Source: Liolophura sinensis | Lineage: Eukaryota > Mollusca > Polyplacophora > Chitonida > Chitonidae | NCBI RefSeq assembly: GCF_032854445.1 | Contig: NC_088296.1 | Location: 18,529,485 to 18,593,484 of the forward strand | Direction of reading: 5' to 3' | Length of the DNA: 64,000 bases | Part shown: piece after piece, positions 18,828 to 51,900 of the stretch | Layout: every line of letters begins with the position of its first letter | Position numbering within the stretch: the first letter of the stretch is position 1 | Translations under genes and position numbers: made by a program | Notes under the pieces: model-generated | The model's database searches: none | What the model saw: the letters and a program-made list of their open reading frames with translations, nothing else | What the model was told of the DNA's origin: nothing

Positions 18828-18953
18828 TCACTGTATGACACAGACTTTACTATCCCTCGTGACTGATTGTCTAGGAGAGGACATGTTGCTATGGAGATTC
18901 TTCTGAGAATTGACTTGTCGTTGTTGTTCTAGCTCGAACCGAGACAACTGTTC
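18828..18953 (-). CDS. NEK9: NEK9 coding exon 31 (last)
   Basis: Acceptor AACAG before 18953. Encodes [18 protein letters not shown], then a Ser/Arg tail ending DSKVCVIQ and TGA at 18828-18830. Phase 0 start. The heptad-like first half ends the coiled coil. Confidence 0.8.
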   Translation of the reverse strand, partial: EQLSRFELEQQRQVNSQKNLHSNMSSPRQSVTRDSKVCVIQ

Positions 18954-21900
18954 CTGTTAAAAGACAAAGCAAAACATTGTTTCTAGGTTGCTTAAACTTA
19001 CTTGATTTTGATAAAAAGGTCAATTAAAATTCTCAAATGAACTTATTATTAATCTCAGGGATTTTAGATTTCCTCATGTTTTCTGTTTCATTAGGTATCA
19101 AAAATAATGTTTTCACTTATAACCTCAAATCTTCTTGCAACATAAACCTCTAACATATGTACTTAGGTGTCTGATATCTGTTTGATATATGAATATAACT
19201 CTGCTTATCATATAACAGACAGGAAGTGTCTTTCCAGAGAAAACTGTCTGATTACTCTGTAACTGATGATAAGTTTGGTACAGACTTATCCTCCTTATAT
19301 ATACCTGAAGCCCGGACAACTTTCTGCATAATGTGTAACTGACTAAAACATTGGGGTTTTTTTTGGGGGGGGGGTTATTCTGTAACCGATAATACGTTTA
19401 GTACAGAGTTATTCCCCCTTACCTGGAGTCCAGCAACGACTTTTTGGTTATTCTGTAATTGATGACTCTGATTTTGTAATTCTCTTCTTAACTTTTCGAT
19501 TTCTAAATTCAACCGTTCTTCTCGCTCCTGAGAGATAAAATGGCAACAGTTATCAGTGACAGCTTGATTAAAAGGAACATTTCCGTGCACGTTTTTATCC
19601 AGAGAAAACTTCAAATAAACACTAATATGTACACATTATGTAAATATAATTTTCATTACACCTCTTATACACGTGTAGAGGTCAGCATAGGTCTTTGTGC
19701 ATGTCAAATTATCCTAGACAGGAGGACAAACAAATTGTCTCCCTTGATACCTGAGCTTGTTGTAAGGCCACTTGTCGGAAGTGTTCCTGCTCTTTTTGGT
19801 GCAGCCTTTCCATTTCTTTGATTTTTTCCTCAGATTTTGATTTTTCTTGTTTGATTTTCTCGAGTTCGTTCTGGAATGAAGACACCAAAAGGTAAGCCAG
19901 TATACTGTAAGCTTTGAAAGACGTTTTTAGAAAGCAAATCAACAGTCCGTAAAAGTAGGACACAATAAAGGCAGTTACACTTAAGAAATATATAACTGTC
20001 ATACAGGACGGCCACTCTATTAACATCAAAGATAATTACTTTAAGGTAAACTACTGACAGAAGTTATTTTTTTCCTTATCCATCAAAATGATTAAAAGAG
20101 AAAAAGGAAGAGAAATTTACTGTCTTTTTTGTTTTTGTTTTTTGTTTTCATACTTTAGTAAACACATCTGCATTAATAATCATTAACAAACAAAGACTTG
20201 CCTCAAAGGGAGGTAAATGTAAGTGACATGTGATTTTATGGTATTTTCTTCCATGATCAACATGATTTTAACCATTGTGGATGAGATTTACACATCAATT
20301 GTAAATCTGACGTGATAAACTGAAATAGTGGCAGCCATACACCCGAAGTAATATGGTACAGTAGACAGACAACTGAAAGGAAGTTTAACGGGACAAAGAT
20401 GTTTGTTAGATTTGTTTTAAAAAAAACGCAACCCTGCAAATGGCCAAGAGCTATATGTGCATGTTGTGGAGACAGGAGAATTCATAGAAGAGCCTGGCTA
20501 AGGCTGTGTGCCCAAGCTCTGCCAGTCCCAGTAAAAGACGTTTTCAGTGGCCTACTTCATTTATTATTTACTTATCTGATTGGTGTTTTATGACGTACTC
20601 AAGAATATTTCACCTAAACGACGGCGACTAGCATTATGGTGGGAGGAAACCGGGCAGAGTCCAGGGGAAACCACACGACCATTGGCCCCTTTTACAAAGA
20701 GGGTGTAATTGAACTTACGCCAAATGCAACTTTCATGACAACAAAGTCTTTGGATTGATCATCAAAGTCCATGATAGTTACTTTTGACTTAGCGTTATGC
20801 TCTTTATGAGACGTGCACCTAGCCTCTTAGCAGCTCCTGGGGTCACATGTTACCTGCAGAGTCTCCTCTCGCCTGCGGACTGTCACATCAGAGACAAACC
20901 CACGTGCTGTCAGCTGCTCCTTCAGGGGCTGGTCTGGCCTGTAACATACAAAGCCAAAATCTTGAAATCATTCATTTAATCAATGTGAGTTAGTACAATG
21001 CGGGCGAAGGAAACCAGGTTGACCAGAGTAAATCCGGCAGACCTGCAGACCAGCAAGGATGTGTGGTCCTGTCTGTTACGTACAAAGCTTAAAATCTTGA
21101 AATCCTCTCATGCTCAACGGCGGCTGGTACAATGCTGGGGGAGGAAACCAAACTGCATGTACCGGTTGTTCATAGTGGGAATGTTTCAGAGTATGTGTAG
21201 AAATGATTCTACATCATACGTCAAGCACAGAACTCAATAAGACAGTTTAAAATCAAGCCCTGACAAAAACTCTCGGGTAAAAATTGTGCGATTTTCAGTG
21301 TTTCAAGACATAACTTTTGTGAGAAGTTTACAAATTGTCCGAAAAGAGATTACAGGTCGTAATGGGAGACTTCAGGATGAGTTACACAGAAGGTCCAAAT
21401 GACAGCAGAACGGATCGTTTTCTTCTATGACGTTGCAGTGCGTGTGCACTTCATATATGTTTTAGGAGCACACATGCACCGATAATTGTGTCGTAACACA
21501 GGAAAGAACAAATGAGATTATGGTACTGGCCCGTCTTGATACAGGCAAGCAGGAGTTATCATTGGCCAATTTACTTTATTAACTTTTAACTTTTATTAAC
21601 TTTATTCTCAACTCACACAGAAACTCTTCCTCTTCCCCTGCCCATGGCACGTATCCTAGACAATGGTTTCTGGCTATTCCCACTGCTGACCTTTTTGAAC
21701 TGTGACTCAGCAGTTATTTTACGAGGCGTTGTTGTTGTTACTTTCCTCACAGGTATCCCAGAGGCCTTTTGTGGATTTGATCCAGCTCTGGAAAGAAAGA
21801 AATTCATACATGTGCATAAAAAAAAAAAAAAATAGATAGAAAATGTGAAGGAAGGCAGATTCAAGGGTGGAAAAACTGGATTGCACGAAGTAAAAAAAAA

Positions 21901-24900
21901 ACACATACCTTTTGCAAGATACTGATGAATTTTCTCACGTTTAATTCACAGGACTGCAACTGTTATGGTTAGAAAGGGTGTTCAAGGAAACAAAACTATG
22001 CAAAGGGAAACATGACTTACCTAATCCCTGAAACAAGCACCTCACTACTACTGCTACTAGACAGCATCTCCTGGTCTGCACTCCCGCCACTATTCATCGA
22101 GAGTGATCTCCCCCTGCCTGAAGAGGTTTCGGTGTTGGCCTGCAGTCCACAACAAAACACAGCATTTATGAAGACAATTTTTTTTCGCATGCACATACAT
22201 GCAACATTGCTGCACGATTTAAAATGTAGCTTGTCACACAGGTTGCCTACTGTATTTTTCAAAACAGATTCTAAGAAAAACAACAAAACGGAGAGGACAC
22301 ATTTCAGAATATTCATAGAATCCTGTTGAAATAGTTTCGTATGTTTTAGGTAACATTTTAAAACTGTCAGACTGACACTACCATGCTGTCAATCGAAGGC
22401 ACAAAAGGAAGCACCCTGTCGCTGTAGCTTGTCGCACCTCCAAACTCACGTATTGATTCAGTATGCTGATTTATGTTATTGCATTAATAATACTAATACA
22501 CCATTACCTTAGCAGCAGTTGTTATGGAAACGATTTTTGACCTTTCCTTCCTCGGGCTGACCTTCTTGTTGTGTTTTACTTGTCCTGTATAATAGACACG
22601 TCAGGATTATACAACTACAGAACACGGACTTAACCTGTAGCGATATACATTTTTGACAGGTCACATGATACAGTAGGACTATTTTTTACCTTTAGTGATA
22701 AAAGAGTTCGAACTCAAAACTGGACCACTACAATGTGCATGCAACGTAGCAGTGAAAGGTTACAGCCAGACACTGTCAAATCCAATAAATGATGTTAAGT
22801 ATATCATGAGTTTCCTGGACACTTTAGATCTACCTTTACATTCACATCCAGCTCTAATTTGGCGTCATGGTATACACAGTACACACGAAATTACGGTTTG
22901 TGCCTTATCCAGTGCCATATACCCACTGTACATGACTCAACTGACAAGAGCATCACTCATCTGGGTCAGAAGGAGGTAAAGGTACCTGGTAATTAACGTA
23001 TCTCCAGGGTTGGCCTCATGGTCTTCACTTGTAAACTTTAAATATCCTTTATTAAGGACCAATCAACGATCAAAACAGACAAACAATTTACATGTTACCA
23101 TGACAACTACCTGTTTTAAGCTCTCTGTTGACATGGATACTGGACACGGATGAGTCAACCAGACACTGGCGTACAGGTAGTTCATCACCGGACACATCGC
23201 TCGTATCATCGGCCTCGTTCCCATCGTTAACATCATCATAATCATCTACATTGGCAAGTTCTTCTTTCAGCCATAGAGGTAACTAAATGTACACACGTAT
23301 GTATAAACATCCAACTGTATCAGACATCAAAGTTTATTTATTTTATTTATTTTGATTGGTTACGCCATACTCAAGAATATTTCACTTATACGACGGTGGC
23401 CAGATTGTGGTGGGAGGAAACCGGGCTGAGCCCCGGGGAAACCCACGGCCATCCGCAGGTTGCTGGAAGACCTTCCCACTTACGGCTGGAGAGGAAGCCA
23501 GCATGAGCCGGACTTGAACTCACAGCAACCGCATTGGGGAGAGGCTTCTGGGTCATTCCGTACGGCCGGAGAGGAAGCCAGCATGAGCTGGACTTGAACT
23601 CACATTGACCGCGTCGGTGAGAGGCTCCTGGGTCATTACGCTGTGCTAGCGCGCTAACCGACTGAGCCACAGGGGACCCCCAGACATCAAAGTTCATTAC
23701 ATACTGCTAAGCCATTGTATGACTAGCTAACTTTTACATGATCAAAGTAATAAATTCTGTTTTCATGCATTATAGAATACTAATTTATTTATTTCTTTGA
23801 CGGGTGTTTTACACAGTATTCAGGAATATTTCACTTATACTACGACAACCAGCATTATAGGGTTTGATGAAACCAGGCAGACCCACCCAGCGGTCACTGT
23901 GAGTTCAAGTTCAGATCATGCTGGCTTCCTCTCCGGCCGTACATGAGAAAGTCTGCCAGCAACCTACGGATGGTCATGGGTTCCCCAGGGCTTTGTTTGG
24001 TTTCCTCCCACCATAATGCTGGTCACCATTGTATGAGTGAAATATTCTTGAGTACAGCGTAAAACACCCATACTATAAATAAAATAAATTAAACAGGCAG
24101 AGCCTGGGCTAAACCCACACCATTTCAAAGGTTGCTGTGAGACCTTCCCACACTATGACTGGAGAAGAAGCAAGTTTTAGTTGGATTTGAACTAAACCAA
24201 CTGCATTGGTGAGAGGGTCTCGCTTCACTGATTAATGTTAATGATGAAAATAAAGCCCACATCCCTTCCCACTCATCAATCCCTGAGAATATCTGCTGCT
24301 TTTAATGAATACTGTATGTCACAGCTTATGAATATAAATCATTAGGGGCCTCCGTGGCTCAGTTGGTTAGCGCGCTAGCGCAGCGTAATGACCCAGGAGT
24401 CTCTCACCAATGCAGTCACTGTGAGTTCAAGTCCAGCTCATGCTGACTTCCTCTCCGGTTGTACGTGGGAAGGTCCTCCAGCAACCTGCGGATGGTCTTG
24501 GGTTTCCCCCGGGACCTGCCCGGTTTCCTCCCACCATAATGCTGGCCGCCGTCGTATAAGTGTAATATTCTTGAGTACGGTGTAAAACATCAATCAAATA
24601 AATAAAAAAATAAAATATTAATGATGAAAATAAAGCCCACATCCCTTCCCACTCACCAATCCCTGAGAACATCCATTGCTTCTGATGAATACTGTATGTC
24701 CCAGCTTATGAATATAAATAACGAAAAATTTGCCACCCCCCAGCTCCACCCCCCTTCAAAACTCACCGGTCCTTGAGAATCCATCTCTGAGGCCTCTGAT
24801 GAATATTCATCACCCCCTTCCCTGCTGGAGGCTGAATGCTGGACAGTATCTGCAGGCACCATCAGGTTTCGACTGAAACGCTTCCTGTTTATAATGAGTT

Positions 24901-27900
24901 AACTACATATATTTATTTATTTATTTGACTGGTGTTTTACGCCGTACTCAAGAATATTTCACTTATACGACAGCAGCCAGTATTATGGTGGGTGGAAACC
25001 GGGCAGAGCCCTGGGGAAACCCACGACCATCCGCAGGTTGCTGACAGACCTTCCCACTTACGGCTGGAGAGGAAGCGAGCATGAGCTGGACTTGAACTCA
25101 CAGGGATCATATTGGTGGGAGGCTCTTGGGTATATATATTTAACATTTACTTGTGTTCATACATGTAGAGACATCCCACATAATAGACAATATGAAAATG
25201 GTGATTCTGAGATCTGATATCTTAATCTAGTGCCTTGCCAACAGAAAAGCAACCACATACATCCGTATTTATTTATCTGATTTGTGTTTTACTCCATACT
25301 CGAGAATATTTCAGTTAAGCGATGGCAGCCAGCCATTATAGTGGGAGGAAACCAGGCAGAGCACGGGGGAAACCCACAACCATCCACAGGTGGCTGACAG
25401 ACCATCAGACGTAGGGTTGGAGAGGATGCCAGCATGAGCTGAACTTCGACTCACAGGGATGATATTGGTGGGAGGCTCTTGGGTCACTACGCCATGTTGG
25501 TGTGCTAGTCCATGGCCCCCCATATTCATCAGTAGAGTAAACTTCTCTGATCAAAAGAAAGAATTACCCTTTTTCAAGGAGTTTCTCCGTTTGTTTGTTA
25601 AAACATCTAAACTCAAGACCATATGGCACTCAGGCCAACCATCACGCTAAAAGATGGAATGTCCAAAATCTGACTGACCCATCCAAGCTAAACAACAGGA
25701 AATAAAAAATCCGACCGACTGACAAACCAACTGACCTACAGACAGAGCGACTTATAAGCTGCTTGTTGCAGTTAAGAAGCCCTGCCCACCTAAAACTGCG
25801 CTTCTTTCTGGATTTCCTGCGGGCTGGAGGCGGCGCAGTTGTCTCCACTTGAACCATAATGTTTTCACCGTGACAGTAAAAAACTAGCCAGGCTCATCAC
25901 CTCAGCAGTGTCCAGTAACCTGTAACCATGGCAACAGAAGTATTAAGTACAACACAAATTCCTGTCAGATATCCTGCATGGTTATAGCAGCTCTTCAGAG
26001 GGCCGATGAGGTTCTAACCCTAAACATTAACAAGGTTAACACACTTATTTATCACACTGAATGAAAAAGAATTCTCTGTATTATGTACCCCCTGAGGATG
26101 AGTGTAAGATGAAGAATTCTCTGTGTTATGTACTACCTGGGGGTGAGTGTAGGATGAAGAATTCTCTGTGTTATGTACTACCTGGGGGTGAGTGTAGGAT
26201 GAAGAATTCTCTGTGTTATGTACTACCTGAGGATGAGTGTAGGATGAAGAATTCTCTGTGTTAAGTACTACCTGAGGATGAGTGTAAGATGAAGAATTCT
26301 CTGTGTTATGTACTACCTGGGGGTGAGTGTAGGATGAAGAATTCTCTGTGTTATGTACTACCTGAGGATAAGTGTAGGATGAAGAATTCTCTGTGTTATA
26401 TTCTACCTGGGGATGAAGAATTCTCTGTGTTATGTTCTACCTGAGGATAAGTGTAGGATGAAGAATTCTCTCTGCTCCTTCAGGAACCATGTCCCGGTCC
26501 TTCTCCTTTTCCCTCTCTTTACCTGTGCTGCCTGCACTCAATGACCTCTTAGGAGCGCTGCCTGAAAAGATCATAACCCCAATATAAGACAATGCTAACA
26601 TCAAAACTGCAGCTTACACGATATCGACGGCCTTATACTGGAGCCAGTGGCTTAGTGCAGAGGTTTTGAACGATATGTACATGGATTTGAACACCAACCA
26701 TAGTGCTTCAGTATCAGGTCACAGTCGTTCCAAAGTGTATTAGCTAATACTGGTATTAAGTCATATTTTATATTTAAAATTTTATCCAAACTCAGCAGCC
26801 AATGTCCATCCCAATTATAAGTGAAACAGTCTTTACTTTGTGCAATAGGTTACATTAATCAGTTATGCACATGACCAAGGTGGGAATAGTGCCATCTGGA
26901 TGTCGTCTAAGGGAAGATAACTCACTGATGTAGCTCATTACTCAGTTATCCCACCTTAGACAAGGTCCACATGTAAATAATAAGGGTTATTTTTCGGTCT
27001 CACCTAAAGGTCTGAAGCCGGCTGAAGCATCAGGGGGTAAACTTTGTGTCAGGCCATTTTCTCCACCATTTCCTGCTGTTGGTGAGAAGACACTGTCCTG
27101 GCTGACTTGTCTGTCTGGACTGAGTGCTCTCCCCTTGTCACACTTGGGCGTGTCACCTGAAGACTGACCTGCATTCAAAGAACACATGTAGTAAGGGTGC
27201 GAAGAACACATGTAGTAAAGGTGCAAAGAACACATGTAGTAAGGGTGCGAAGAACACATGTAGTAAAGGTGTGAAGAACACATGTAGTAAAGGTGCACAG
27301 AACACATGTAGTAAAGGTGCGAAGAACATATGTAGTAAAGGTGCAAAGAACACATGTAGTAAAGGTGCAAAGAACACATGTAGTAAGAACATATGTAGTA
27401 AAGGTGCAAATAACACATGTAGTAAAGGTGCAAAGAACACATGTAGTAAAGGTGCAAAGAACACATGTAGTAAAGGTGTGAAGAACACATGTAGTAAAGG
27501 TGCGAAGAACATATGTAGTAAAGGTGCAAAGAACACATGTAGTAAAGGTGCAAAGAACACATGTAGTAAGAACATATGTAGTAAAGGTGCAAATAACACA
27601 TGTAGTAAAGGTGCAAAGAACACACGTAGTAAAGGTGCAAAGAACACATGTAGTAAGAACATATGTAGTAAAGGTGCTAATAACACATGTAGTAAAGGTG
27701 CAAAGAACATATGTAGTAAAGGTGCAAAGAACACATGTAGTAAAGGTGCAAAGAACACATGCAGTAAAGGTGCAAAGAACATATGTATCAAAGGTACAAA
27801 GAACACATGTAGTAAAGGTGCAAAGAACACATGTAGTAAAGGTGCAAAGAACACATGTAGTAAAGGTGCAAAGAACACATGTAGTAAAGGTACAAAGAAC

Positions 27901-30900
27901 ACATGTAGTAAAGGTGCGAAGAACACATGTAGTAAAGGTGCAAAGAACACATGTAGTAAAGGTGCAAAGAACACATGCAGTAAAGGTGCAAAGAACATAT
28001 GTACCAAAGGTACAAAGAACACATGTAGTAAAGGTGCAAAGAACATATGTACCAAAGGTACAAAGAACACATGTAGTAAAGGTGCAAAGAATATTCTGGA
28101 TTCTCCTACTTTAGCATTAAATACCAATCAAACGAATACAATAAATATCTCACCTTCTGGAGCCACAGCAGGGCACTCTCCGCTGACAATGCTGGTGTTG
28201 CTGGGGTGTCTGCAGTGTTCTCCCTTACGTGGAGTAACACTCTCTGCTCTCACCTCCTCCTCCCCTCCTCGGGAGGTGAGGTTCCCCCCTGTGCTGCTAA
28301 GAGAATCCCCGGGGTCTGTGAGTGGGGTAGTGTAGCGAAGTCCCCACAAGTATAACTCATCAATGGTTGTGCTGGCTGCAGTGTAGAACTCCCCACATTG
28401 GACACGCTGTGAAAACATATTTACATCTATAGGAATTTGATTTTCTTCCATGTCCAACTGAAAAGCTTGTGGAATGATAGTACGAGTCCTTAGATGTGTG
28501 TAAATATGCAGTACTATGTCTTCTTGTGTCAGGGCGATTCTGCCACAGTGCTGCCGCAACTGAAGTATCATGCTGAAGACACTAAACAAGACACCACACC
28601 CAGTCACATAATACTGATACCAGACCAACTACATCTGTTTCCTTGCTCTAACCTCTTAGTGCTGAGCACCAAGCCCCAAGCAAAGTCTTTGGTATGACCT
28701 GGCCCGTGCTACTTCTTCGGTGGAAGATTTTAATGATGTAAAAGGACACAATACAGTGTTTGAGTTTCTGGAATATGTAAGGTGTCCATAATACTGAAAG
28801 AATCTGGTTTACTGCATGGGAGTCTTTAACAATTTATCAAATAATAGTTACTGAACAAATTACATGTAAAATCAATTTAATCCCAGGGAAATTTTCTCAA
28901 TACAAATCAGCCGAAATCTTAATTTTGCCATTCACCTCTAATATCTAGTTTGGTGAATACACTCATGTCAAATAGGTACTACAAACCTGTAAATATGCAG
29001 CATGTCATCACCTATACTTATGGGGCCTCCATGACTCAGATGGTTAGCACGCTAGCACAGCGTAATGACTGGTCGCCATCATATAAGTGAAATATGCTTG
29101 AGTACGGCATAAAACATCAGTCAAATAAGTCTATACTTACATTGACGGTGGAGTTGGACAGAAACTTGACCTCCGTGGGTGCGTTGGAGGGTTTCGTGTT
29201 CCCTGTACCCAGCTGGGCCTCCGTGTTACTGCCGAATGTGTACACGTGGCCGGGCTCAACAAGGACAGCACTGTGGTTAGGGCCCATAGACACGTCGATG
29301 ACACGGTGTCGACCTAAAGCTCTCACAGGGGTTGGTATCTTCTTACCCTCTACCTCTGTCTGTAAGGTATGTGCATTTACATTATCAACAATCCGTTTCT
29401 CTTACACCCAACTAATAGAAAATAAATTTAAAAAACTTCTTTCAACATCTCATTAAAAAAGAATGAGAGCAGGATCCATTTTTTGAGCGTCAGTTGGATT
29501 TCATTAAATGCCTTATAGTTCTTACATGGTAATATTCCGATAGGTGAAAAAAAAATGTACAAACTGACTTATGAAACAATTATTAAGGGAAGACAACCTA
29601 CTAGAGTTAAGGTGTCTAAATGGCTCAACTGCTTCAAAGATACTCTTTTCACACGCCTTTTAACCAGATAGATTTGAATACGAAAAGGTACCCAACATTG
29701 GTGTTTATTTATTTATTATATGATTGATGTTTTATGCCACACACAAGAATATTTGATTTCTAAGACGATGGTCAGCATTATGGTGGGAGGAAACCGGGAA
29801 GACCCATGACCAGTCACAGGTTGCTGGCAGACCGTCCCATGAGCTGGCAGAGAAACTTCATGTAAGACTATGTAAAGAGCACTTACCCTAATTCCTCAAA
29901 CTTTTTGCATGTGAAATAGCAACTTTCAGCGCAATTTAAGCATATTTTTAGGTAAAACTACATTGCCTGGATTGTCCAAATTCAGGGCTTCACAAAAAGT
30001 ATATTGTTATCAGTCCAACTCAGAATTTGCCTGAATAAACAGTTTAATGTTTGCAAGTATATCGTTATCAGTCCAACTCAGAATCTGCTTGAATCAACAG
30101 TTTAATGTTTGCAAGTATATCGTTATCAGTCCAACTCAGAATCTGCTTGAATCAACAGTTTAATGTTTGCAAGTATATCGTTATCAGTCCAACTCAGAAT
30201 CTGCTTGAATCAACAGTTTAATGTTTGCAAGTATATCGTTATCAGTCCAACTCAGAATTTGCTTGAATCAACAGTTTAATGATTGCAAGTATATCGTTAT
30301 CAGTCCAACTCAGAATTTGCTTGAATCAACAGTTTAATGTTTGCAAGTATATCGTTATCAGTCCAACTCAGAATTTGCTTGAATCAACAGTTTAATGTTT
30401 ACAAGTATATCGTTATCAGTCCAACTCAGAATCTGCTTGAATCAACAGTTTAATGTTTGCAAGTATATCGTTATCAGTCCAACTCAGAATTTGCTTGAAT
30501 CAACAGTTTAATGTTTGCAAGTATATCGTTATCAGTCCAACTCAGAATCTGCTTGAATCAACAGTTTAATCTTTACAAGTATATCGTTATCAGTCCAACT
30601 CAGAATTTGCTTGAATCAACAGTTTAATGTTTGCAAGTATATCGTTATCAGTCCAACTCAGAATTTGCTTGAATCAACAGTTTAATGTTTGCAAGTATAT
30701 CGTTATCAGTCCAACTCAGAATCTGCTTGAATCAACAGTTTAATGTTTACAAGTATATCGTTATCAGTCCAACTCAGAATCTGCTTGAATCAACAGTTTA
30801 ATGTTTGCAAGTATATTGTTATCAGTCCAACTCAGAATTTGCTTGAATAAACACGCTGCAAATGTGCAAAAAGGTTAAAGAATTATAGTAACTTCTATCT

Positions 30901-33900
30901 ACGTGTAATAGGTGATATGCACAATCTCCAGAGTCTAGAACTCAGCCTCTCTGGAAGTACAAGTCAAATACCACACCTAATTCTAATGCAGTACAAGCAC
31001 CTGTACACATAACGAGTTCCGGCACAGAATTAGACTAATCCATTTCAATATTTCATTTTGAATCAACTTAAATTTTGTATACACTTCCTGCAGGTAGATG
31101 TCAAAAAGTAAAAACTATCACAAAATTGAGAGAAAAAAAAGTTGAAAATTGCATGAATTAAATTTTGTAATGTCTTGGCATGAATGGTGATTAATTGCTT
31201 TTGCTTAATGAGCTCATCATATATTAAAATAACATCACAATAAAGGAAGATGTGGACTAAAGGGAGATAACTCACCTTGGTAAAAATGTTTTTCATGGCC
31301 ATGAGAAATCCCTGTCTGTTGTTCAAGCCTAGTTTGTTGTGTTCGTTGTTACCGCAGGCATACACACTGCCCACATCGGTCAGAAACATAGTCCCATCCA
31401 GGCCACAGTACACCTCGCGGACTAATACGGTCAAGTCCTCCAAGGCTATTACTTCTACAGGTTGACAGCTGAGGGTGGAAAAGAAAAAGGTACAGAATAG
31501 CATCCTGTCAATCATAATGGATAGTCCAACACACCTGAAAATAGGCTGAACTGAAAATGAAACCATTTCGATGAAGTCTAAAATATGACAACAAAACGAC
31601 AACTTGCATAAGAATTGTGTTCAATCATAAAAAATTTTTTAGCTTTATAAAATAAACAAAATTTCTCACATGACAATAAATTTAAAATACAACACTAAAA
31701 AATCAGTACACATCTTCAAAATTACAAAATGCCATTAAAAACAATTTAACTGCTAACGTGTTCATCAAACTTTTCATTAGGATACTGTTCGTACACCATT
31801 AATAGCTATCCTTTTCACATATAAACACACACTTTTTGCAACTTTTAATTTGATTCTGGAGACAAAAATCCATTGATTGGGTTGGCCAAGTTCAGAGTTC
31901 CCTAAAATGTTTACTTTCATCAGCATCCAAAAGACTTCAGAGCAGGTCTTGGAAGCATGCACAAAATTTTAAAAATCAACCAGTGGCGCCTTCTGGTGGG
32001 CAAGGGAAAGTACTCCTGCTCTTACATGTCTTGCAAGTCTCACCTATGGCGTAGAGTGGACATGTACTTACTGGTTTTCTTCCGTCCCCAATCCCAGGCG
32101 CCCGTCTGCACCTCGTCCCCATGTGAATATTTCCCCAGCACTGCCTGCTACAGCCACATGGTGAGGTCCACAGGCCAGTGATATCACATCCACACTGTTA
32201 ACACAGAGGGTGAGACAGATTGATTGATTGATTGTTTGATACAAAGTCTGGATGCCTGATGTGAGCTTTGCAGCTATACCACCTCTACAGTGTTTACCAA
32301 AAGTCAGACAGCACAATTAAAGAAGGTCATTTCTGACCAGGGTAAAAGTTTAAAACCTTGCCACAATGCTTTCTGTTCAGCGTTGGAAGTTGAAATATGG
32401 ACAGATCTGTCATCAGATCACACTGATAAAGTGGTGTAAATTTTCATTTTTATGCACAAAAATAACCTCTAAAACACCATATCAACATCTGAAAGAAATG
32501 GCTTTGCGGAATCAACCTTTAGAAGGTACCATAAACAAAGAAGTTTAACCCGCAATAGCAACTAAGCTCTCACCTAAGGAGGGGCTCAATGAGGTGAAGG
32601 TACCATAAACGAAGAAGTTTAACCGCCAATAGCAATTAAGCTCTCACCTAAGGAGGGGCTCAATGAGGCGAGGCCTTAATGCACAACACCAGTCTCCGTG
32701 TCCAAGGCAACCACTGATTCCGTCCCCACACGTCATAACGATTCCGTTATCACTGCCAAACACACTGAACCCATCGCCACAACATGCTCTGAAATGTAAG
32801 ACAATTATATTTGCTTTCACATATATGTATGTGTTTAATATCTGTTCAACGCAGTCGCTGTGAGTTCAAGTCCAGCTCATACTGGCTTCCTCTCCGACTG
32901 TACGTGGGAAGGTCTGGCAGCAGCCTGCGCATGAATGTGGGTTACCCCCGGGCTTTGCCCGGTGTCCTCCCACCATAATGCTGGCCACTGTTGTAGAAGT
33001 GAAATATCCTTGAGTACGGCGTAAAACATCTATCAAATAAATACATCAAATAAATAATATATGTTTCTTTGCTAACTTGAAGTTCCTTTCATCCATCTGA
33101 TAAGCACACATCACTGCATTTATTTTTTGATTTGTCTGATTGTGGTTTATGGAAATTCTCACTGTTATCTGTTTATATGAGAGCATTCCGTATATAGTGT
33201 TGGTGGCAATTCTGGCAAATGTGGTGGAATGACGTCAACAGCATTTGAAAGCCTAACATTATTTGTGGCTATACCTCAGCAATCTGTAACACCATGCATT
33301 CTTACGTGATGTCACACCTGCTAAAAGTTCAAATACCAGGACAAGACACTGTTCCCAGACTAACAACAACGGCTTTATTACACCGCAAATATTTAGGAAA
33401 GCAATTCTGATTTATCTTGACCCTTATTTTTCAATTATGCTTTAAAGAACCAAAGGGTCTGACAATGGTGTACATCTGTAGCTCTTTAGGCTATACCAAT
33501 TTGAACTGTTGTTTTATGGGCTGAATAAAACTTTTTTCAATGCCTGAGGAGGGTATAAAAACAAAAAAACAAGAGTTCAGGGGAACACAACAAAAGCCCG
33601 AACAAATGCATTTGTTTGAAAAGAATACCAACAACACCGTGGTGAGTGTTTAACCCCAGTGGGAAATGTGGTGAGTATAACCCCTGTGGGGAATGTGTTG
33701 AGTATAACTCCAGTGGGGAATGTGGTGAGTATAACCCTGTGGGGAATGTGGTGAGTATAAACCCTGTGGGGAATGTGGTGAGTATAACCCCTGTGGGAAA
33801 TGTGGTGAGTATAACCCCTGTGGGGAATATGGTGATTGTAACCCCTGTGGGGAATGTGGTGAGTGTAACCCCTGTGGGGAATGTGCTGAGTATAACTCCA

Positions 33901-39900: not shown

Positions 39901-42900
39901 TGTTGACTAGGGCCGGTAGATTTGAACCCTCAAAGGTTTTCTGCAGACAGGCAATCTCATAGAGGATACATCCCAAGGCCCAGATGTCCGAGCGGTCATT
40001 GTAGGCCTTCCCTTCACACTGTCACGTATAAAACAGTCAGTGAACATTTGTTAAAGGAGAAGAAAATATAAATATCAATCAAATACCATTGAAAAGAGCA
40101 TGCTTTTCCTCGCAAATGCATGCATAAAAAAAATTCTAATATGTTCCTCAAGTTGATAAATTATAAATAGAGTCAGCACCAAAATCCACTGTGGGTGACT
40201 CTATTTCGCCTAAGAACTAGTCCTAAAGTTTTTGTGAGGGGGAGAATTGCCATCGGAAACTGTCGAAGTGCAGTTCGTACATTTCCAGTAGAACTCTTCT
40301 TCCCAGAAGGTAGCGAACAGTACAGTTCATTTACCACTTGACGATCGGGAAACCGGAATGTTGGATGTAGGTTTTGAGTTGCACGAATACGGCGTCAGTT
40401 TTAAAGACTCTGCTGAGAGGCAATACACCTCCAGCATAAATTACAGGGTGTTAAAGATGGAGGACGCGATGGACTGGCGATTTATGCCAGCTTGCCATTT
40501 TCAGGCTTTACGTGTATGGCAAGGAAAAATGTCAAAATTATGCAGCAGGCACCACCAGATAGAAAAAAATGTGCTCTTTTCAGGCTATAGTGTCATGACA
40601 AGTTTTCTTCTCCTTAAAACATTAAAATTATGCCAAAATCAGATCAAAAAGGCATCAAAACTTATGGTAGCAAATATGGTCTTCAACATTTTTTTCCAGA
40701 AGAAAACAATATTTGAAAATATTTTTGTATGGTGGGTATTAGGAACCACATTTTGGTATTTATCTAGAATGCAAAATAATGTTCTAAATAAGGATGTGGT
40801 GCATGTCTAAGAAATTTTATCTGAATGTAAATCTGTTGTTTACATCCAAACATGTGCATTTAATCTGAATTATGATAATACTCATGATCATACTAAAAAT
40901 ATAAATCTGATCGAAATCCAGGTTTGAACACATTTCTTAGGTGAAAAGACCAAATTCTAGTGCAAATATGTTTATTAAACATGTGTTACATCCTCATTTA
41001 TTACATTATTACATAAAGATTATACATACTAAAAGGTGGTTCCAAATACCCACCATACCAAAAATATATTCTAGTGTCTTTTTCTCTTCACAGAAAAATC
41101 AATAAAAATATCGAAGACCACATTTATCACTAACTTTTTGCACTCTTTGATCGGAACTTCAAGTAATTTTTATGTTTTCTACACCTTTAAGAACGTGTGA
41201 TATTAAAACGAAATTGGTGAATACTCTAAAAAATAGCATAAACCTGTGGATGGCCGTGGGTTTCCCACCATAATGCTGGCCACTGTCGTATAAAGTGAAA
41301 TATTCTTGACTATGGCGTAAAACACCAAACAAATAAATAAATCAATCAAAATAGCATAAAATAATAAACTACTGACATACTGCCTAATACTAATTCAAGG
41401 TAAAAAATACTGTATATGAGTGAACAACTGTCAGTAAATCTGTGCTTGACTAGACAGCTGTTCAACAATTACATACATCATAGAGGAGGACAAAATGGTT
41501 TTAAACTTCCAATTATCATGATTATAGAGAAAGGAGAAACCAACATGTTTCTGAAAGAAAAAAGCAACCAGTTTCTGAAAGGAGAAACCAACAGGTCTCT
41601 GAAAGGAGAAACCAACAGGTCGCTGGAAGAAGAAACCAACAGGTCTCTGAAAGGAGAAACCAATATGTTCCTGAAAGGAGAAACCCACATGTTTCTGAAA
41701 GGAGAAACCAACAGGTTTATATCATACATGTAACGGTACCTTTTAAAATTCTACTCACCATTTCAGGACTGATGTAATATGGTGTCCCCAGGACTGTGTT
41801 CGCTCCCTTGTTTGATGTTGACAACATCTTTGATATCCCAAAATCGCCCACTTTGACCACACCTTCTTTTGTAAGAAAAATGTTGGCTGTTTTCAAATCC
41901 CTGCAAACCCAAACACAAACTATGACATCCCTTTGGTCTAGCAGTTAGTAATCACACTTTTTTTTACCATTTTCAATGTCACATTGTTGCTTCCTTTTTT
42001 TTGTTATACAGAAAAGGTTCTTTAAGACAACCCACTGTGTATGTTTATCTGTTTGCCATTGATATTATTTTGCCTAACACACCTGTAAAATGTATGATAT
42101 CCAAGGAATGATGAGTTAAATATGTGTATATTCTCTGTAAGGTTTTATTTATTTATTAGGTTGGTGTTTTACGCCGTACTCAAGAATATTTCATTTATGC
42201 AACATTATGGTGGGAGGAAACAGGGCAGAGCCCGGGGGAAACCCACGACCATCCGCAGGTTTTGCCAGACCTTCCCACGTACGGCCCGGAGAGGAAGCCA
42301 GCATGAGCTGGACTTGAACTCACAGCGACCGCATTGGTGAGAGACTCCTGAGTTTCTCTGTAGGAAGAAGGCATGTAAGTTGCAACAACTTGTCAATGAA
42401 TCCAGCTGGAAATTGCCATTGAAAATAAGTTTAAAACACAAAAAAAATCACTGGGTTCTCTGGCATGCCAGATGTTTGTTAAAAAGTGTAGGTTACTGCC
42501 TACACTGCACTTTGGATCATCCTAATCAGTGAGTAAAGCTGGAGCTGTGTTAGACCCAAGGTAGCCAGGTAGGGACCTAGGACTTGAAATCCGCAACTTA
42601 CATGTACCTGTGCAAGATCTTGCGTTTATGAACATGTCTGACAGCAGCCACAATCTGCTGAAACAGTGGGGAGAACTGGACTGCTTACCTGTGCAAGATG
42701 TTGTGTTCATGGATATGTCTGATAGCAGCCACAATCTGCTGAAACAGTGGGAAGAACTGGACTGCTTACCTGTGGAAGATCTTGTGTTCATGGACATGTC
42801 TGATAGCAGCCACAATCTGCTGAAACAGTGGAGAGAACTGGACTGCTTACCTGTGGAAGATCTTGTGTTCATGGACATGTCTGATAGCAGCCACAGTCTG

Positions 42901-45900
42901 CTGAAACAGCGGGGAGAACAGGACTGTTTACCTGTGCAAGATCTTGTGTTAATGGACATGTCTGATAATCTGCTAAAACAGTGGGGGGAACTGGACTGCT
43001 TACCTGTGCAAGATCTTGTGTTAATGGACATGTCTGATAGCAGCCATAGTCTGCTAAAACAGTGGAGAGAACTGGACTGCTTACCTGTGCAAGATCTTGT
43101 GTTCATGGACATGTCTGACAGCATCCACAGTCTGCTGAAACAGTGGGGAGAACTGGACTGCTTACCTGTGCAAGATCTTGTGTTCATGGACATGTCTGAC
43201 AGCATCCACAGTCTGCTGAAACAGTGGGGAGAACAGGACTGCTTACCTGTGCAAGATCTTGTGTTAATGGACATGTCTGATGGCAGCCACAATCTGCTGA
43301 AACAGTGGAGAGAACTGGACTGCTTACCTGTGCAAGATGTTGTGTTCATGGATATGTCTGATAGCAGCCACAATCTGCTGAAACAGTGGAGAGAACTGGA
43401 CTGCTTACCTGTGCAAGATCTTGTGTTAATGGACATGTCTGATAGCAGCCATAGTCTGCTGAAACAGTGGAGAGAACTGGACTGCTTACCTGTGCAAGAT
43501 CTTGTGTTCATGGCCATGTCTGATAGCAGCCAAAGTCTGCTGAAACAGTGGAGAGAACTGGACTGCTTACCTGTGCATGATCTTGTGTTCATGGACATGT
43601 CTGACAGCAGCCATAGTCTGCTGAAACAGTGGAGAGAACAGGACTGCTTACCTGTGCAAGATCTTGTGTTCATGGACATGTCTGATGGCAGCCAAAGTCT
43701 GCTGAAACAGTGGAGAGAACTGGACTGCTTACCTGTGCAAGATCTTGTGTTCATGAACATGTCTGATAGCAGCCACAGTCTGCTGAAACAGTGGGGAGAA
43801 CTGGACTGCTTACCTGTGCAAGATCTTGTGTTCATGGACATGTCTGATGGCAGCCAAAGCCTGCTGAAACAGTGGAGAGAACTGGACTGCTTACCTGTGC
43901 AAGATCTTGTGTTCATGGACATGTCTGATGGCAGCCACAATCTGCTAAAACAGTGGGGAGAACTGGACTGCTTACCTGTGCAAGATCTTGTGTTCATGGA
44001 CATGTCTGATGGCAGCCAAAGTCTGCTGAAACAGTGGAGAGAACTGGACTGCTTACCTGTGCAAGATCTTGTGTTAATGGGCATGTTTGATAGCAGCCAA
44101 AGTCTGCTGAAACAGTGGAGAGAACTGGACTGCTTACCTGTGCAAGATGTTGTGTTCATGGATATGTCTGATAGCAGCCACAATCTGCTGAAACAGTGGA
44201 GAGAACTGGACTGCTTACCTGTGCAAGATCTTGTGTTAATGGACATGTCTGATAGCAGCCATAGTCTGCTGAAACAGTGGAGAGAACTGGACTGCTTACC
44301 TGTGCAAGATCTTGTGTTCATGGCCATGTCTGATAGCAGCCAAAGTCTGCTGAAACAGTGGAGAGAACTGGGACTGCTTACCTGTGCATGATCTTGTGTT
44401 CATGGACATGTCTGACAGCAGCCATAGTCTGCTGAAACAGTGGAGAGAACAGGACTGCTTACCTGTGCAAGATCTTGTGTTCATGGACATGTCTGATGGC
44501 AGCCAAAGTCTGCTGAAACAGTGGAGAGAACTGGACTGCTTACCTGTGCAAGATCTTGTGTTCATGAACATGTCTGATAGCAGCCACAGTCTGCTGAAAC
44601 AGTGGGGAGAACTGGACTGCTTACCTGTGCAAGATCTTGTGTTCATGGACATGTCTGATGGCAGCCAAAGCCTGCTGAAACAGTGGAGAGAACTGGACTG
44701 CTTACCTGTGCAAGATCTTGTGTTCATGGACATGTCTGATGGCAGCCACAATCTGCTAAAACAGTGGGGAGAACTGGACTGCTTACCTGTGCAAGATCTT
44801 GTGTTCATGGACATGTCTGATGGCAGCCAAAGTCTGCTGAAACAGTGGAGAGAACTGGACTGCTTACCTGTGCAAGATCTTGTGTTAATGGGCATGTTTG
44901 ATAGCAGCCAAAGTCTGCTGAAACAGTGGAGAGAACTGGACTGCTTACCTGTGCAAGATCTTGTGTTCATGGCCATGTCTGATAGCAGCCAAAGTCTGCT
45001 GAAACAGTGGAGAGAACTGGACTGCTTACCTGTGCATGATCTTGTGTTCATGGACATGTCTGACAGCAGCCACAATATGCTGAAAGAGTGGGGAGAACTG
45101 GACTGCTTACCTGTGCAAGATCTTGTGTTAATGGACATGTCTGATAGCAGCCATAGTCTGCTGAAACAGTGGAGAGAACTGGACTGCTTACCTGTGCAAG
45201 ATGATGTGTTCATGGACATGTCTGATGGCAGCCAAAGTCTGCTGAAACAGTGCAGAGAACAGGACTGCTTACCTGTGCAAGATGTTGTGTTCATGGACAT
45301 GTCTGATAGCAGCCACAATCTGCTGAAACATCCCCAAAACTTCCTTCTCTTCTAGCGGTCTCTCCTGCTGAGCCAAAAACTGACTCATGGTTCTGTAATG
45401 GAGGTTCAATTCTGTTTTCTTACTTTTTATAATCAAAACACGGTGCTGATACTCCTAGGTGTAATTATAACATATACATACTTAAAGGATACATGAAAAT
45501 GTACTACAAAACGAACAGCATGGCTCTAAGGAAATGGAGACAGATATGCTCGACAAACCAGAACAAAATTTCATTTTCAAGGCAAATTATACATTATTAA
45601 TAACTCCTCTATTTATGTGTATTTTCAATCAATGATCAGAAATATTGGGAAATTACATTTTCAATGAATCTCCTAGGAACAGGCAACCAGCTTAGTGAAC
45701 CCAATTTGGGCTCTCCCGCCAACAAAGTTATTTTTATAGCTCAATCACGACAGCAGGCTACTTAATTTCTGAGCCATTTTTACACCCCAAGAAGAAAGCA
45801 GAGAAGCCTTTTGTAACAAAAAAAAAATACTTTTTTTCATAGGTTAGTTCTCATCATACACTCCGTGTTAAGACATAAAAACCAAGCTTTTCACGCATCC

Positions 45901-48900
45901 TTTTAACTGCATGACAAAATCACATAAGCAACGGGGACAGAATATTGCTGAATCTGATATGGTTTTATATGTAGCGCTAAGAATAAATACCGTACGTAGA
46001 AAGGTCTGCCAGCAACCTGTGGAGGGTCATGGGTTTCCCCTGGCCTCTGCCCAGTTTCCTCCCACCATAATATTGGCTGCCGTTGCAAAACTGAAATATC
46101 CTTGAGTAGGACGTAAAACACCAACCAAATACGTAAATAAATCAAAAAATTAATACTTAAGCCAAGGAGGTGTTTTGTCCTGTTTGTCAGAAATCTTTGT
46201 CGTAAAAAGCTTAGGCACAGATTTGAGGTAATTTGCAAACCTACCCTCCATCCGCGTACTCCATTTCAATCATGATGACACCGTCTTCCTCAAAACTGTC
46301 GTAGTAACTGATGATGTTAGGATGGTCCAACATGGCCAACACTCGGACCTGTAAACAAGATTAGAGCAAAATGACATAAACAAAACAAAATCAAAAAAAA
46401 AAAAAAAAAACTAAAATGAAGTATGTATCAAATGAAAGACAAAACTGTACAGGAAAATAGTTGGATTCATTTTTTTTTAAAGTATTTTTTTAACCTAGTC
46501 AAATGCATTTAACCTAGTCAAATGCATTTAACCTAGTCAAATGCATTTTATTCTAAAGGAACCAGTGGTGTCACATAAGATTTTTGCTACTTAACACATA
46601 TATTAGCCTGCTACATTTTATCATTCAAAAGGCATATACATATGGATCCATGAATGCATTCATTGATTTGATGTTGAAACAAATTATTTCAGGTAAAATG
46701 TATACAGATGAAATAATTGACACCTTCTGGATCACAACAGACCACCATATAGAATCTGATCTTTTAACACAATTTTACTCCGTTAGACAAAATTCTAAAA
46801 AAAAACAAATCCAACTACTTTCCTGGACAGTTTTTAATGGTCTTTCATCTGATATATACTTTATTTTAGAGTAGTCTCTGCATTTAAGATTTTAAACTAA
46901 ACAGTTTTTGAATGTGCCTGCATAATTCGGAAGTCCACACATGAACAGCACAATGCAAAGACACATACGCCAAAAATCCAGTCACCGTTCATATCCAGGG
47001 TCAAATGCATGGCCCAGGTATTCAATAGTGTATTAATTTAGCGGTTAAGGTACTAGCTTTTGTCTGAACTAAAGCGTCATTAGTTCTGTACTAACTCTGA
47101 TACTGCAGTAACTTGTCAGGGTGAGCTGGCAAGAAACCTGTCTCCGAAAAGTCACTGATTAAAGGAAAATATTGTGACTTTGCATTATTTTTCCTTCGCA
47201 ACGTCAGATTTATTACAAATATATCTTCCCAAGATCTGAATGAAAGTGTCTGCTATAAGTCAGAAAGCCAATCAATTGCTAAATTCGCTAAAGTCGATAC
47301 AGCCAGCTAGGCCTAATGCTTACACCCATGCTGGACGAGGATGAGCAGGACAGCTAAAACACAACACTTGTGTCCATGAACAACTTGTGTCCATGAACAA
47401 CTTGTGTCCATGAACAACTTCTGTCCATGAACAACTTGTGTCCATGAACAACTTGTGTCCATGAACATTGATCTGACCGAGCGCCAAACTAAAAGAAACA
47501 TCGGACCTTTGAACACCGAACACATCGATCTGATCTGAGCGCCAATCTAAAAGAAACATCGGACCTTTGAACACCGAACACATCGATCTGATCTGAGCGC
47601 CAATCTAAAAGAAACATCGGACCTTTGAACACCGAACACATCGATCTGATCTGAGCGCCAAACTAAAAGAAACATCGGACCTTTGAACACCGAACACATC
47701 GATCTGATCTGAGCGCCAATCTAAAAGAAACATCGGACCTTTGAACACCGAACACATCGATCTGATCTGAGCGCCAATCTAAAAGAAACATCGGACCTTT
47801 GAACACCGAACACATCGATCTGATCTGAGTGCCAAACTAAAAGAAACATCGGACCTTTGAACACCGAACACATCGATCTGATCTGAGCGCCAAACTAAAA
47901 GAAACATCGGACCTTTGAACACCGAACACATCGATCTGATCTGAGCGCCAAACTAAAAGAAACATCGGACCTTTGAACACCGAACACATCGATCTGATCT
48001 GAGCGCCAAACTAAACGAAACATCGGACCTTTGAACACCGAACACATCGATCTGATCTGAGCGCCAAACTAAACGAAACATCGGACCTTTGAACACCGAA
48101 CACATCGATCTGATCTGAGCGCCAAACTAAAAGAAACATCGGACCTTTGAACACCGGACACATCGATCTGATCTGAGCGCCAATCTAAAAGAAACATCGG
48201 ACCTTTGAACACCGAACACATCGATCTGATCTGAGCGCCAAACTAAAAGAAACATCGGACCTTTGAACACCGAACACATCGATCTGATCTGAGCGCCAAT
48301 CTAAAAGAAACATCGGACCTTTGAACACCGAACACATCGATCTGATCGAGCGCCAATCTAAAAGAAACATCGGACCTTTGAACACCGAACACATCGATCT
48401 GATCTGAGCGCCAATCTAAAAGAAACATCGGACCTTTGAACACCGAACACATCGATCTGATCTGAGCGCCAAACTAAAAGAAACATCGGACCTTTGAACA
48501 CCGAACACATCGATCTGATCTGAGCGCCAAACTAAAAGAAACATCGGACCTTTGAACACCGAACACAGCTGATACTCTTTGGTTGGGTATAATTTTCTCA
48601 TTGCCACGTTGTTTAATACTGATGGTACGGGAGAGCTCCTAGGTTTTGCGATGTAAATTCTAGACAGGTATAACATAACAAAATGGCGTCACCAAATGAG
48701 TGGCTAGGTACTGATGACTGTTTGCTATTTATTTTATTGATAAGTGGTGTAGAATTTTTTGAATATTATTAGAATATTTTTGGAATACTACTTTATTAAT
48801 TAATTCAGCTTTAATGGCTGAATTTATGTTCACTTTCAGGATACACAACTATAAAGTCCATCATGAAGCTATCCTAGACTTAAGTCAAAATTTCAAATCA

Positions 48901-51900
48901 CTATAAAATGGCACACTCCTATGGAACAAGGTAAAAACATCGCTTGACAAGGAAAATTCTAGGGTGACAGAGTCATTTGGGTTTTTTCTCTTTATACTAG
49001 TTATCCATATAACGGACATCCCCTGTCCCTGATCGCTCCAGGTACAGGTTAGCTATGACGCGCCTGGGATACGTCATGTTTTGATGCTGTTCGTATATTA
49101 CTTCTGTCCATATAATAATGACCTTTAGTTAGTGTTCGTTAGTGTTTATATATCATCTTGTGACATTACTTATGTCACATTCTGTGTTTGTGTTCGTAGT
49201 GTTATTCATGGGAATGCATTATTCTCTAATCTACACTAATTGTTTATTGCATGTGTTTGGAACGAACATATCTGTGTAACATTGCTTATGTCAGATTCTG
49301 TGTTTGTGTTCGTAGTGTTATTCATGGGAATGCATTATTCTCTAATCTACACTAATTGTTCGTTGCATATGTTTGGAACGAACATATCTGTGTAACATTA
49401 CTTATGTCACATTCTGTGTTTGTGTTCGTAGTGTTATTCATGGGAATGCATTATTCTCTAATCTACACAAATTGTTCGTTGCATATCTTAGAAATGAACA
49501 TATCTGTGTAACATTACTTATGTCACATTCTGTGTTTGTGTTCGTAGGGTTATTCACGGGAATGCATTATTCTCTAATCTACACGAATTGTTTATTGCAT
49601 GTGTTTGGAACAAACATATCTGTGTAACATTACTTATGTCACATTCTGTGTTTGTGTTCATAGGGTTATTCACGGGAATCCATTATTCTCTAATCTACAC
49701 AAATTGTTTATTGCATATGTTAGAAATGAACATATCTGTGTAACATTACTTATGTCACATTCTGTGTTCATAGGGTTATTCATGGGACCAGTGAATAAAA
49801 TTATACACATGAAGACCTCACCACCACAAGTTGTGTGTGTGTTTCGTTCATTTCCCACGTCACAATAGGTTTGTTATTGTAACACAAATTTCAGCTAAAA
49901 TAACAAAAAGGAGTACACCAAATTTAATGATCGAAATTTTTACTGAAGTGTATGATCCCGGGGCCTGATGCCTGACCAGATTGTGCACTGAACAGTCAAG
50001 TCCCCTTCACCACAAGCTGCCACTCAAGATGATTTCTCATTCATTGGGTATTCAGAAATCTACATTGACATATCTCTTCATTAAAAATGAAAGTACTGGA
50101 ATTCTAAAACCATTTCGCTTTACTGAAGCATATATTCTGAAGGCATTATTCTGTGTGGACTGATAAAATTATACTTTTTTTGTAACCTTGAATCTGGACA
50201 ATCGACCTAATGTAGCATAGTCTCCAAAATCAAATGAAAAGTGTAAATAAACTGCTCTGAAAGTTGCTCTTTAATATGTGATAAAGGTTGATGAAATAGG
50301 TATTGTAAATATTGAAATGCTTTCAAAAGAAGCCAGGCACCTGGAAAACTCATACATCTATACTAAGGTTCATTTCAGAGTAATGTTTGCACATTACCTC
50401 GTTAAGAGCCAGGTTTCTCTCCGCAGCGTTCAAATCAGACACCTGAAAAACTCATTCATCTATACAAAGGTTCGTTTCAGAGTAATGTTTGCACGTTACC
50501 TCATTAAGAGCCAGGTTTCTCTCCGCAGCGTTCAAATCAGACACCTGAAAAACTCATACATCTATACAAAGGTTCGTTTCAGAGTAATGTTTGCACGTTA
50601 CCTCGTTAAGAGCCAGGTTTCTCTCCGCAGCGTTCAAATCAGACACCTGAAAAACTCATACATCTATACAAAGGTTCGTATCAGAGTAATGTTTGCACGT
50701 TACCTCGTTAAGGGCCAGGTTTCTCTCCGCAGCATTCAAATCAGACACCTGAAAAACTCATACATCTATACAAAGGTTCGTATCAGAGTAATGTTTGCAC
50801 GTTACCTCGTTAAGGGCCAGGTTTCTCTCCGCAGGGTTCAAATCAGACACCTGAAAAACTCATACATCTATACAAAGGTTCGTTTCAGAGTAATGTTTGC
50901 ACGTTACCTCGTTAAGGGCCAGGTTTCTCTCCGCAGCATTCAAATCAGACACCTGAAAAACTCATACATCTATACAAAGGTTCGTATCAGAGTAATGTTT
51001 GCACGTTACCTCGTTAAGGGCCAGGTTTCTCTCCGCAGCGTTCAAATCAGACACCTGAAAAACTCATACATCTATACAAAGGTTCGTTTCAGAGTAATGT
51101 TTGCACGTTACCTCGTTAAGGGCCAGGTTTCTCTCCGCAGCGTTCAAATCATGCATATTGATTTCTTTAAGGATCACCAAAGAATCATCGTCTTTCTTTC
51201 TGTACAAAACAGCAGCTCCGTATGCACCTGGAAAGGAAATTCGATTTCAACATCTTTAAGTGGGTCTGTCCGTTTTAACTTTGAAGAGATTAGTGGGCCA
51301 ATGACAGCTACACAAACACCTTACCTTAAAGAAAAGATAAGTACTCAACCAAATGAACTGATAATGTATCCTGCATAAGTTTAAAAAGAATACTAATCTA
51401 TATTTGTGATGTCGCTTTGCTGAGAAACCATGTTTCCACTGACCTCACCCAAACGCTGATTTGCCTTTTGACCATATGACGCAACATGGTATTTCAGGTT
51501 TCTCTAACATGGCATATCCCGTTCGTGGGAAGGTCTGTCAGCAACCTGCGGATGGTCGTGGGTTTCTACCAGGCTCTGCCTGGTTTCCTCCCACCATAAT
51601 GCTGGCCACCGTTGTATAAATAAAATATTCTTGAGTACGGCATAAAACGCTAATCATATAAATAAATAAATAAATAAATAAAAACACATGGCATATCCCA
51701 TGGCGTCATAAGAATTCCAGATTAAAAATCTGTTTACAAAGTTTGAGATACCAAGCAGATCAGAACAAAATGGCTGTTCTGTTTCAACCTCTCTTCTAAC
51801 TTAAACAAGGTTAAATTTTTAGCTGACTTTTCTTCTAAAAAAACTATACATAAAGTGGTTTCATGGGTATAGGGTTAACCCCAATTCCACCAGGTTTTCA

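Follow-up and report, generated by a model that had tools for sequence, protein, structure and literature searches.

Tandem duplications around 5′ splice sites in a NEK8/9-type gene and in other genes of the chiton Liolophura sinensis

We analyzed a 64,000-nucleotide (nt) stretch of the Liolophura sinensis genome (contig NC_088296.1, positions 18,529,485 to 18,593,484; hereafter the window). Its minus strand carries a gene for a protein with a kinase domain and RCC1 repeats, which we take to be the NEK8/NEK9 architecture; the gene is assigned to the NEK8/9 type, without choosing between the two. At five exons of this gene, the end of the exon, its 5′ splice site (donor), and the start of the following intron are repeated in tandem, and arrays of the same kind occur in other genes of the genome. 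The reading we favor, at a probability of about 0.57, is that these are minisatellite-type arrays that originated when DNA around 5′ splice sites was duplicated locally in tandem. The tendency would be genome-wide in L. sinensis, with a dense set of cases in this gene.

Duplicated donors in the NEK8/9-type gene

Each junction was tested by comparing an 80-nt segment centered on it with the 320 nt on either side. This self-comparison gave scores of 78, 70, 54, 33, and 26 for the donors of exons 6, 8, 15, 30, and 23, respectively. The remaining 24 testable donors scored 14 or less in either direction; the exon 18 donor, within a masked repeat, was outside the test. For random distant pairs (n = 3000), the 99.9th percentile was 21 and the maximum 24. 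For the donors of exons 15, 23, and 30, and for the acceptor of exon 28, none of 500 shuffles each reached the observed alignment score. The original prediction that, at these five exons, a unit of exon end, 5′ splice site, and intron start is repeated in tandem is therefore confirmed, and its exon numbering is the same as in the 31-exon model rebuilt here.

The copy numbers and periods claimed for exons 6, 8, and 15 were recovered, as were three copies at exon 23 (Table 1). At exon 30, where two copies had been claimed, two diverged copies were found together with a partial third. Copies at exons 23 and 30 were not called by the tandem-repeat finder and were detected by junction-centered local alignment. 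The graded series described previously was likewise reproduced, i.e., a 93% identical pair (exon 15), diverged copies (exons 23 and 30), and large arrays (exons 6 and 8). In exons 6, 8, and 15, the units include only the last 24–58 nt of the exon; at none of these three is a whole exon duplicated with both flanking splice sites, as in tandem exon duplication. Within the 34-copy array of exon 8, one block of roughly ten units reappears almost unchanged, which points to recent block duplication or homogenization.

A blind scan of the gene gave 21 runs, merged into 17 loci: five span donors, one spans an acceptor, one abuts an acceptor, two begin about 40–50 nt past donors, and eight are purely intronic. 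The claim that duplications always lie on the donor side holds only for the five exons chosen, given the acceptor-spanning pair at exon 28. This pair was absent from the original prediction, as were the arrays close to exons 9, 20, and 21. An extension of exon 21 to CTCAG/GTAGAA (slash, exon–intron border), by which the 45-base-pair (bp) array would become donor-spanning, was ruled out by reading phase.

Table 1. Tandem duplications at or near splice sites of the NEK8/9-type gene, and its coding part (window coordinates).
Feature	Position	Strand	Details
102-bp × 8.0 array over exon 6 donor	50334..51151	(-)	exon 51112-51227; GT in all 8 copies
81-bp × 33.8 (34 copies) array over exon 8 donor	42605..45330	(-)	exon 45273-45392
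74-bp × 2.0 pair over exon 15 donor	32522..32671	(-)	exon 32648-32788; 93% identical
Diverged pair over exon 23 donor	24614..24805	(-)	exon 24767-24884; score 29.5, 0/500 shuffles
Exon 23 unit, third copy	24234..24339	(-)	short interspersed element (SINE)-like repeat (24347-24615) between copies 2 and 3
Two diverged copies and partial third over exon 30 donor	19233..19462	(-)	exon 19423-19527; scores 42, 19; 0/500 shuffles each
Old pair over acceptor of exon 28	21064-21150 and 20930-21016	(-)	exon 20854-20938; score 42.5, 0/500 shuffles
24-bp array ending 7 nt short of exon 20	27176..28091	(-)	exon 27004-27168
24-bp array beginning ~40 nt past exon 9 donor	41529..41718	(-)	CTCCTTTCAG-like in most units
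45-bp × 9 array beginning ~50 nt past exon 21 donor	26067..26474	(-)	CCTCAG/GTA-like in most units
Coding part of the NEK8/9-type gene	18828..56538	(-)	31 exons encoding a protein kinase domain, RCC1 repeats, and a C-terminal part

Arrays at splice sites in the control sample

Control stretches were taken from the same genome (609,464,459 bases, 632 contigs searched) by exon matches of three families, i.e., RCC1, myosin head, and kinesin. They were picked by clustering of these matches while their sequence was still unseen (40 loci, 163 matches), and the sample finally comprised 46 stretches and 295,946 bases. Junctions were called from reading frame and a position weight matrix, yielding 150 donors and 159 acceptors. 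Likely merged-exon matches were flagged by hand and excluded (7 of 163 and 4 of 23), with incomplete flagging of matches containing stop codons. Junctions scoring at least the threshold of 22 were considered positive.

Thirteen of the 150 donors and seven of the 159 acceptors reached this threshold. From a baseline of 4.15%, obtained from intronic coverage after collapsing the arrays, 6.2 donors and 6.6 acceptors were expected (P = 0.010 and P = 0.49, respectively). Inspection by eye led us to reject two positives, namely L012, whose array begins about 50 nt past the true donor, and L002, whose array stops some 45 nt upstream of the true acceptor. The L034 and L020 donors were shifted to the true site and remained positive, and L041, with a score of 21, fell below the threshold, but both inspection by eye and the array test below show it to span a donor. 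Donor-spanning duplication was thereby confirmed at 13/150 control donors (L001, L020, L023, L025, L026, L028, L032, L034, L038, L039, L041, and two in L043) and acceptor-spanning duplication at 5/159 acceptors (L004, L018, L031, L037, and L042); L034 has an additional array abutting an acceptor. Exonic reach is 9 nt in L020, whose array holds about 46 copies, and 8 nt in L041. The by-eye counts gave P = 0.051 for donors compared to acceptors in the control sample alone. Including the NEK8/9-type gene, the comparison became 18/180 versus 6/189 (P = 0.010), a value that leans high because this gene is the discovery case. Two of the acceptor-spanning arrays, at 1646-3006 of L042 (32-bp units) and 4120-5301 of L004 (27-bp units; both in sense coordinates), contain about 7–9 exonic nt and about 43 copies each.

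These counts do not bear out the claim that the series is peculiar to one gene, since the proportion of donors affected here (5/30) does not differ significantly from that in the controls (P = 0.19). A process confined to the NEK8/9-type gene would fit its higher collapsed tandem coverage (11.0%, compared to 3.9% in controls), but in L043, a control stretch of the myosin family, two arrays span donors, and we regard such a process as highly improbable.

We also tested the arrays themselves. Blind arrays with a score of at least 120 and a period of at least 20 were each represented by one collapsed unit placed at random. For the control-only test, three donors and one acceptor were relocated by eye, and a second L043 array, lost in de-duplication, was re-added by hand and cut to the part clear of its neighbor. 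Eleven of 71 control arrays spanned a called donor compared to 2.9 expected (P ~8e-5), and 4/71 spanned an acceptor compared to 2.7 expected (P = 0.29). An earlier version, which included the NEK8/9-type gene and preceded the L043 restoration, gave 13/82 versus 4.6 for donors (P = 0.0004) and 4 versus 4.3 for acceptors.

With this gene included, the number of arrays whose first unit lies over the site was 13 at the donor, 9 at +50, 4 at each of +100 and +150, and 3 at +200; further into the intron it was 1–3 between +250 and +500, with 5 at +600. The corresponding last-unit profile at acceptors showed 4 at the site and 0–5 elsewhere. Among control arrays, ten start 5–60 nt inside the exon, one starts deeper, none start from −5 to +20, and five start from +20 to +60. 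Among arrays with a period of up to 300 located off annotated donors, a strong donor motif was present in 5/70 in sense and 5/70 in antisense orientation (random rates of 0.073 and 0.040). In this sample, resemblance to a donor is not in itself enough to attract arrays.

Origin and fate of the arrays

The excess of donors over collapsed intron, together with the absence of a clear acceptor excess, points to a mutational bias rather than tolerance alone. Were there no such bias, arrays would arise anywhere in introns, with donor-spanning ones tolerated and acceptor-spanning ones partly purged, as splicing would turn first to the acceptor copy lying upstream. This is consistent with acceptor counts near random expectation, with donors in the NEK8/9-type gene not significantly above the intronic baseline, and with uncollapsed coverage that is lower 20–200 nt before acceptors (8–13 of 161–171) than 20–200 nt after donors (16–24 of 146–162). 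However, control donors exceed the intronic rate, and the first-unit count falls steeply from the donor to the region of +250 to +500. Tolerance alone could raise donors as far as the intronic level but no further. On these grounds we prefer a bias with moderate confidence and consider tolerance without bias rather unlikely.

The original prediction had proposed a local process or tolerance favoring breakpoints around 5′ splice sites. The tendency reappears in the controls, and its confinement to the gene is not supported. The comparison that accompanied that proposal, i.e., whether donor-spanning duplications are as common at random intronic positions, was run on the present sample rather than genome-wide and left the tendency standing.

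Several observations weigh against a bias at donors. Inside this gene alone, a donor excess is not convincing: 5/29 donors are affected compared to 3.2 expected from collapsed intronic coverage (P = 0.21), with 3/13 strong arrays donor-spanning compared to 0.8 expected (P = 0.04). In the controls, the whole-junction measure gives a weaker donor excess (P = 0.010) than the array test, and its comparison of donors with acceptors gave P = 0.17. In the first 40 loci plus this gene, uncollapsed coverage reached 16/164 donors and 19–26 of 131–155 points located 100–800 nt into the intron; the comparison reverses, as introns are filled by long arrays. To ask where arrays began, collapsing is the appropriate control, but the donor excess depends on it. 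The five control arrays that start 20–60 nt past a donor indicate that the favored zone may be the exon end and early intron rather than the splice site itself. With respect to the sample, the last 6 of the 46 stretches joined from the same match lists after the first result was known, donors were called automatically with correction by eye for positives only, and the data cover three gene families in one species and one assembly, with some loci possibly paralogous (L026-L028). Furthermore, the bias is deduced from those arrays that survived, and selection could contribute to it, and the lesion suggested below as the source of the breakpoints is speculative.

The breakpoints of a first duplication lie on either side of the donor, one within the exon end and one within the intron, as the arrays themselves show. 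The exon tails within units measure 8–66 nt (median 25; 14 arrays measured), and the place of the donor inside the unit shows no significant departure from a uniform distribution (P = 0.17, n = 14). The duplication is probably tolerated because the original donor stays on an intact exon, leaving exon definition free to ignore the copies. The array would then expand and homogenize like any minisatellite, by unequal exchange or slippage, as the copy patterns suggest. The initiating lesion might be tied to the polarity of transcription or splicing, e.g., R-loops or paired nicks close to the 5′ splice site, though this step is speculative. We tentatively suggest, as a possibility short of even odds, that 5′ splice sites of this genome are birth hotspots of tandem duplication through a lesion linked to transcription or splicing, with the result that a sizeable share of donors bears copies (about 7–9% in the sample), and that some arrays, such as that of exon 6, would in that case be a standing nursery for new exons and introns.

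Arrays are classic sites of misassembly, and the assembly (609,495,693 bases, 632 scaffolds, hifiasm) was built from PacBio HiFi reads at only 14× depth (PMC11068029); it was published as Liolophura japonica (PMC11068029), a name since corrected to Liolophura sinensis (PMC12441733). However, the mean HiFi read of 8.3 kb (PMC11068029) exceeds the 2.7-kb exon 8 array, the copies differ from one another, and old diverged pairs are present, leaving an assembly artefact a very slim prospect. Mobile introner-like or transposon-borne repeats might be suspected where SINE-like repeats are common, as in this gene, yet the unit sequence is that of the local exon and intron. Introners would be expected to leave homologous copies scattered over many genes; among the matches listed in the genome search, where a missing match is not proof of absence, the units of exons 6 and 8 were found at their own locus only. 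A mobile origin is scarcely credible.

In a further reading, the copies have a selected function, either as reserve donors or as cassette exons included by splicing. The GT is retained in 208/237 extra copies across 16 arrays (exons 23 and 30 excluded), as such a function would predict. In the exon 8 array, the donor CAG/GTAAGC is present in 32/34 copies, and 1/9 columns vary at the donor compared to 34/72 elsewhere. In the 13 arrays with at least three extra copies, however, divergence of the donor columns is lower than that of the flanks in eight and higher in five, and GT is absent from all three extra copies of L001. Copied donors are generally no better kept than their flanks. The copied exon part of exon 8 shows 73 nonsynonymous and 12 synonymous codon differences, plus stops, with both counts inflated by the copies’ shared ancestry; the exon 8 copies are without coding constraint. 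The exon 8 unit contains TTTCAG and CAG/GTAAGC, but the possible cassette, at 50 nt, counts against such a use. In general, the units of these arrays straddle existing exon–intron borders.

The exon 6 array is a special case. Each of its seven downstream copies consists of the acceptor-like TTTTTCAG, 45 nt open in frame, and a donor; one copy encodes P for A. TTTTTCAG has a matrix score of 7.3–8.5, compared to a range of 1.8–17.9 for the acceptors of this gene. Neighboring cassettes are 57 nt apart, less than the shortest intron of the gene (223 nt, n = 30) and the shortest called donor-to-acceptor distance in the controls (141 nt). Inclusion of one cassette by skipping its neighbors would thus be more plausible than serial inclusion. 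A selected function is improbable.

Related systems and gene model

The closest counterpart is the variable number tandem repeat (VNTR) in intron 18 of human ABCA7. There, the first GT of the array is the canonical exon 18 donor, and retention of one unit and skipping of exon 19 are described (PMC5954066). Both cases involve a minisatellite directly flanking an exon, with the exon’s donor inside the array, and the chiton units include the donor as in a splice-donor VNTR of this type. In contrast, the human VNTR is a single locus with a 25-bp unit beginning at GT (PMC5954066), whereas the chiton units hold exonic sequence and occur at many genes. Ordinary intronic minisatellites and VNTRs share the unit length, copy divergence, and block patterns of the chiton arrays, which differ in the excess of arrays with the first unit over a 5′ splice site.

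Few routes to the origin of introns or exons have direct support, and tandem duplication across splice signals is among them (PMC3443670); in potato a single duplication crossing an intron–exon boundary yields a spliced intron (PMC4974935). The chiton arrays are alike in being tandem duplications that carry splice signals and could create introns or exons (PMC4974935; PMC3443670). They differ in that the potato case is one duplication (PMC4974935), whereas here an existing donor is duplicated, in up to 34 copies in this gene and about 46 in L020. In the open-access literature, judged by titles and the starts of abstracts, we recognized no report that tandem arrays are in excess at 5′ splice sites across a genome; this scope takes in few subscription papers, and the result is not proof of absence.

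The origin of introns and exons is an old open question. A genome with many events of different ages, in which the donor and acceptor sides control for each other, opens the birth rate, tolerance, expansion, and splicing fate of such events to direct testing. The arrays also hold a warning for annotation, as spliced alignment and gene models can be misled where an exon end is repeated together with its donor.

In the 31-exon model, exons 2–31 form a single open frame to the stop codon and all introns are GT-AG. Pfam identified the protein kinase domain and RCC1 repeats in the encoded protein, and among solved structures the kinase domain is nearest to those of NEK1, NEK2, and NEK7. Exons 2–5 (55001-55573, 53074-54545) encode about 145 residues N-terminal of the kinase, for which Pfam gave no match even at an E-value of 10; a DUF4347-like N-terminus, at first suspected, is accordingly not claimed. 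In exon 1, the frame is broken by one base near 56330 (56320-56345), with open stretches on either side, reflecting either an assembly indel or a wrong exon model. SINE-like repeats are frequent in the introns: 22 of the 26 repeated intervals from self-comparison of the window fall in 18159-55988, and they seem to derive from transfer RNA. Upstream of the coding start of the gene lies a further array of 62 units of 29 bp (58317-60133).

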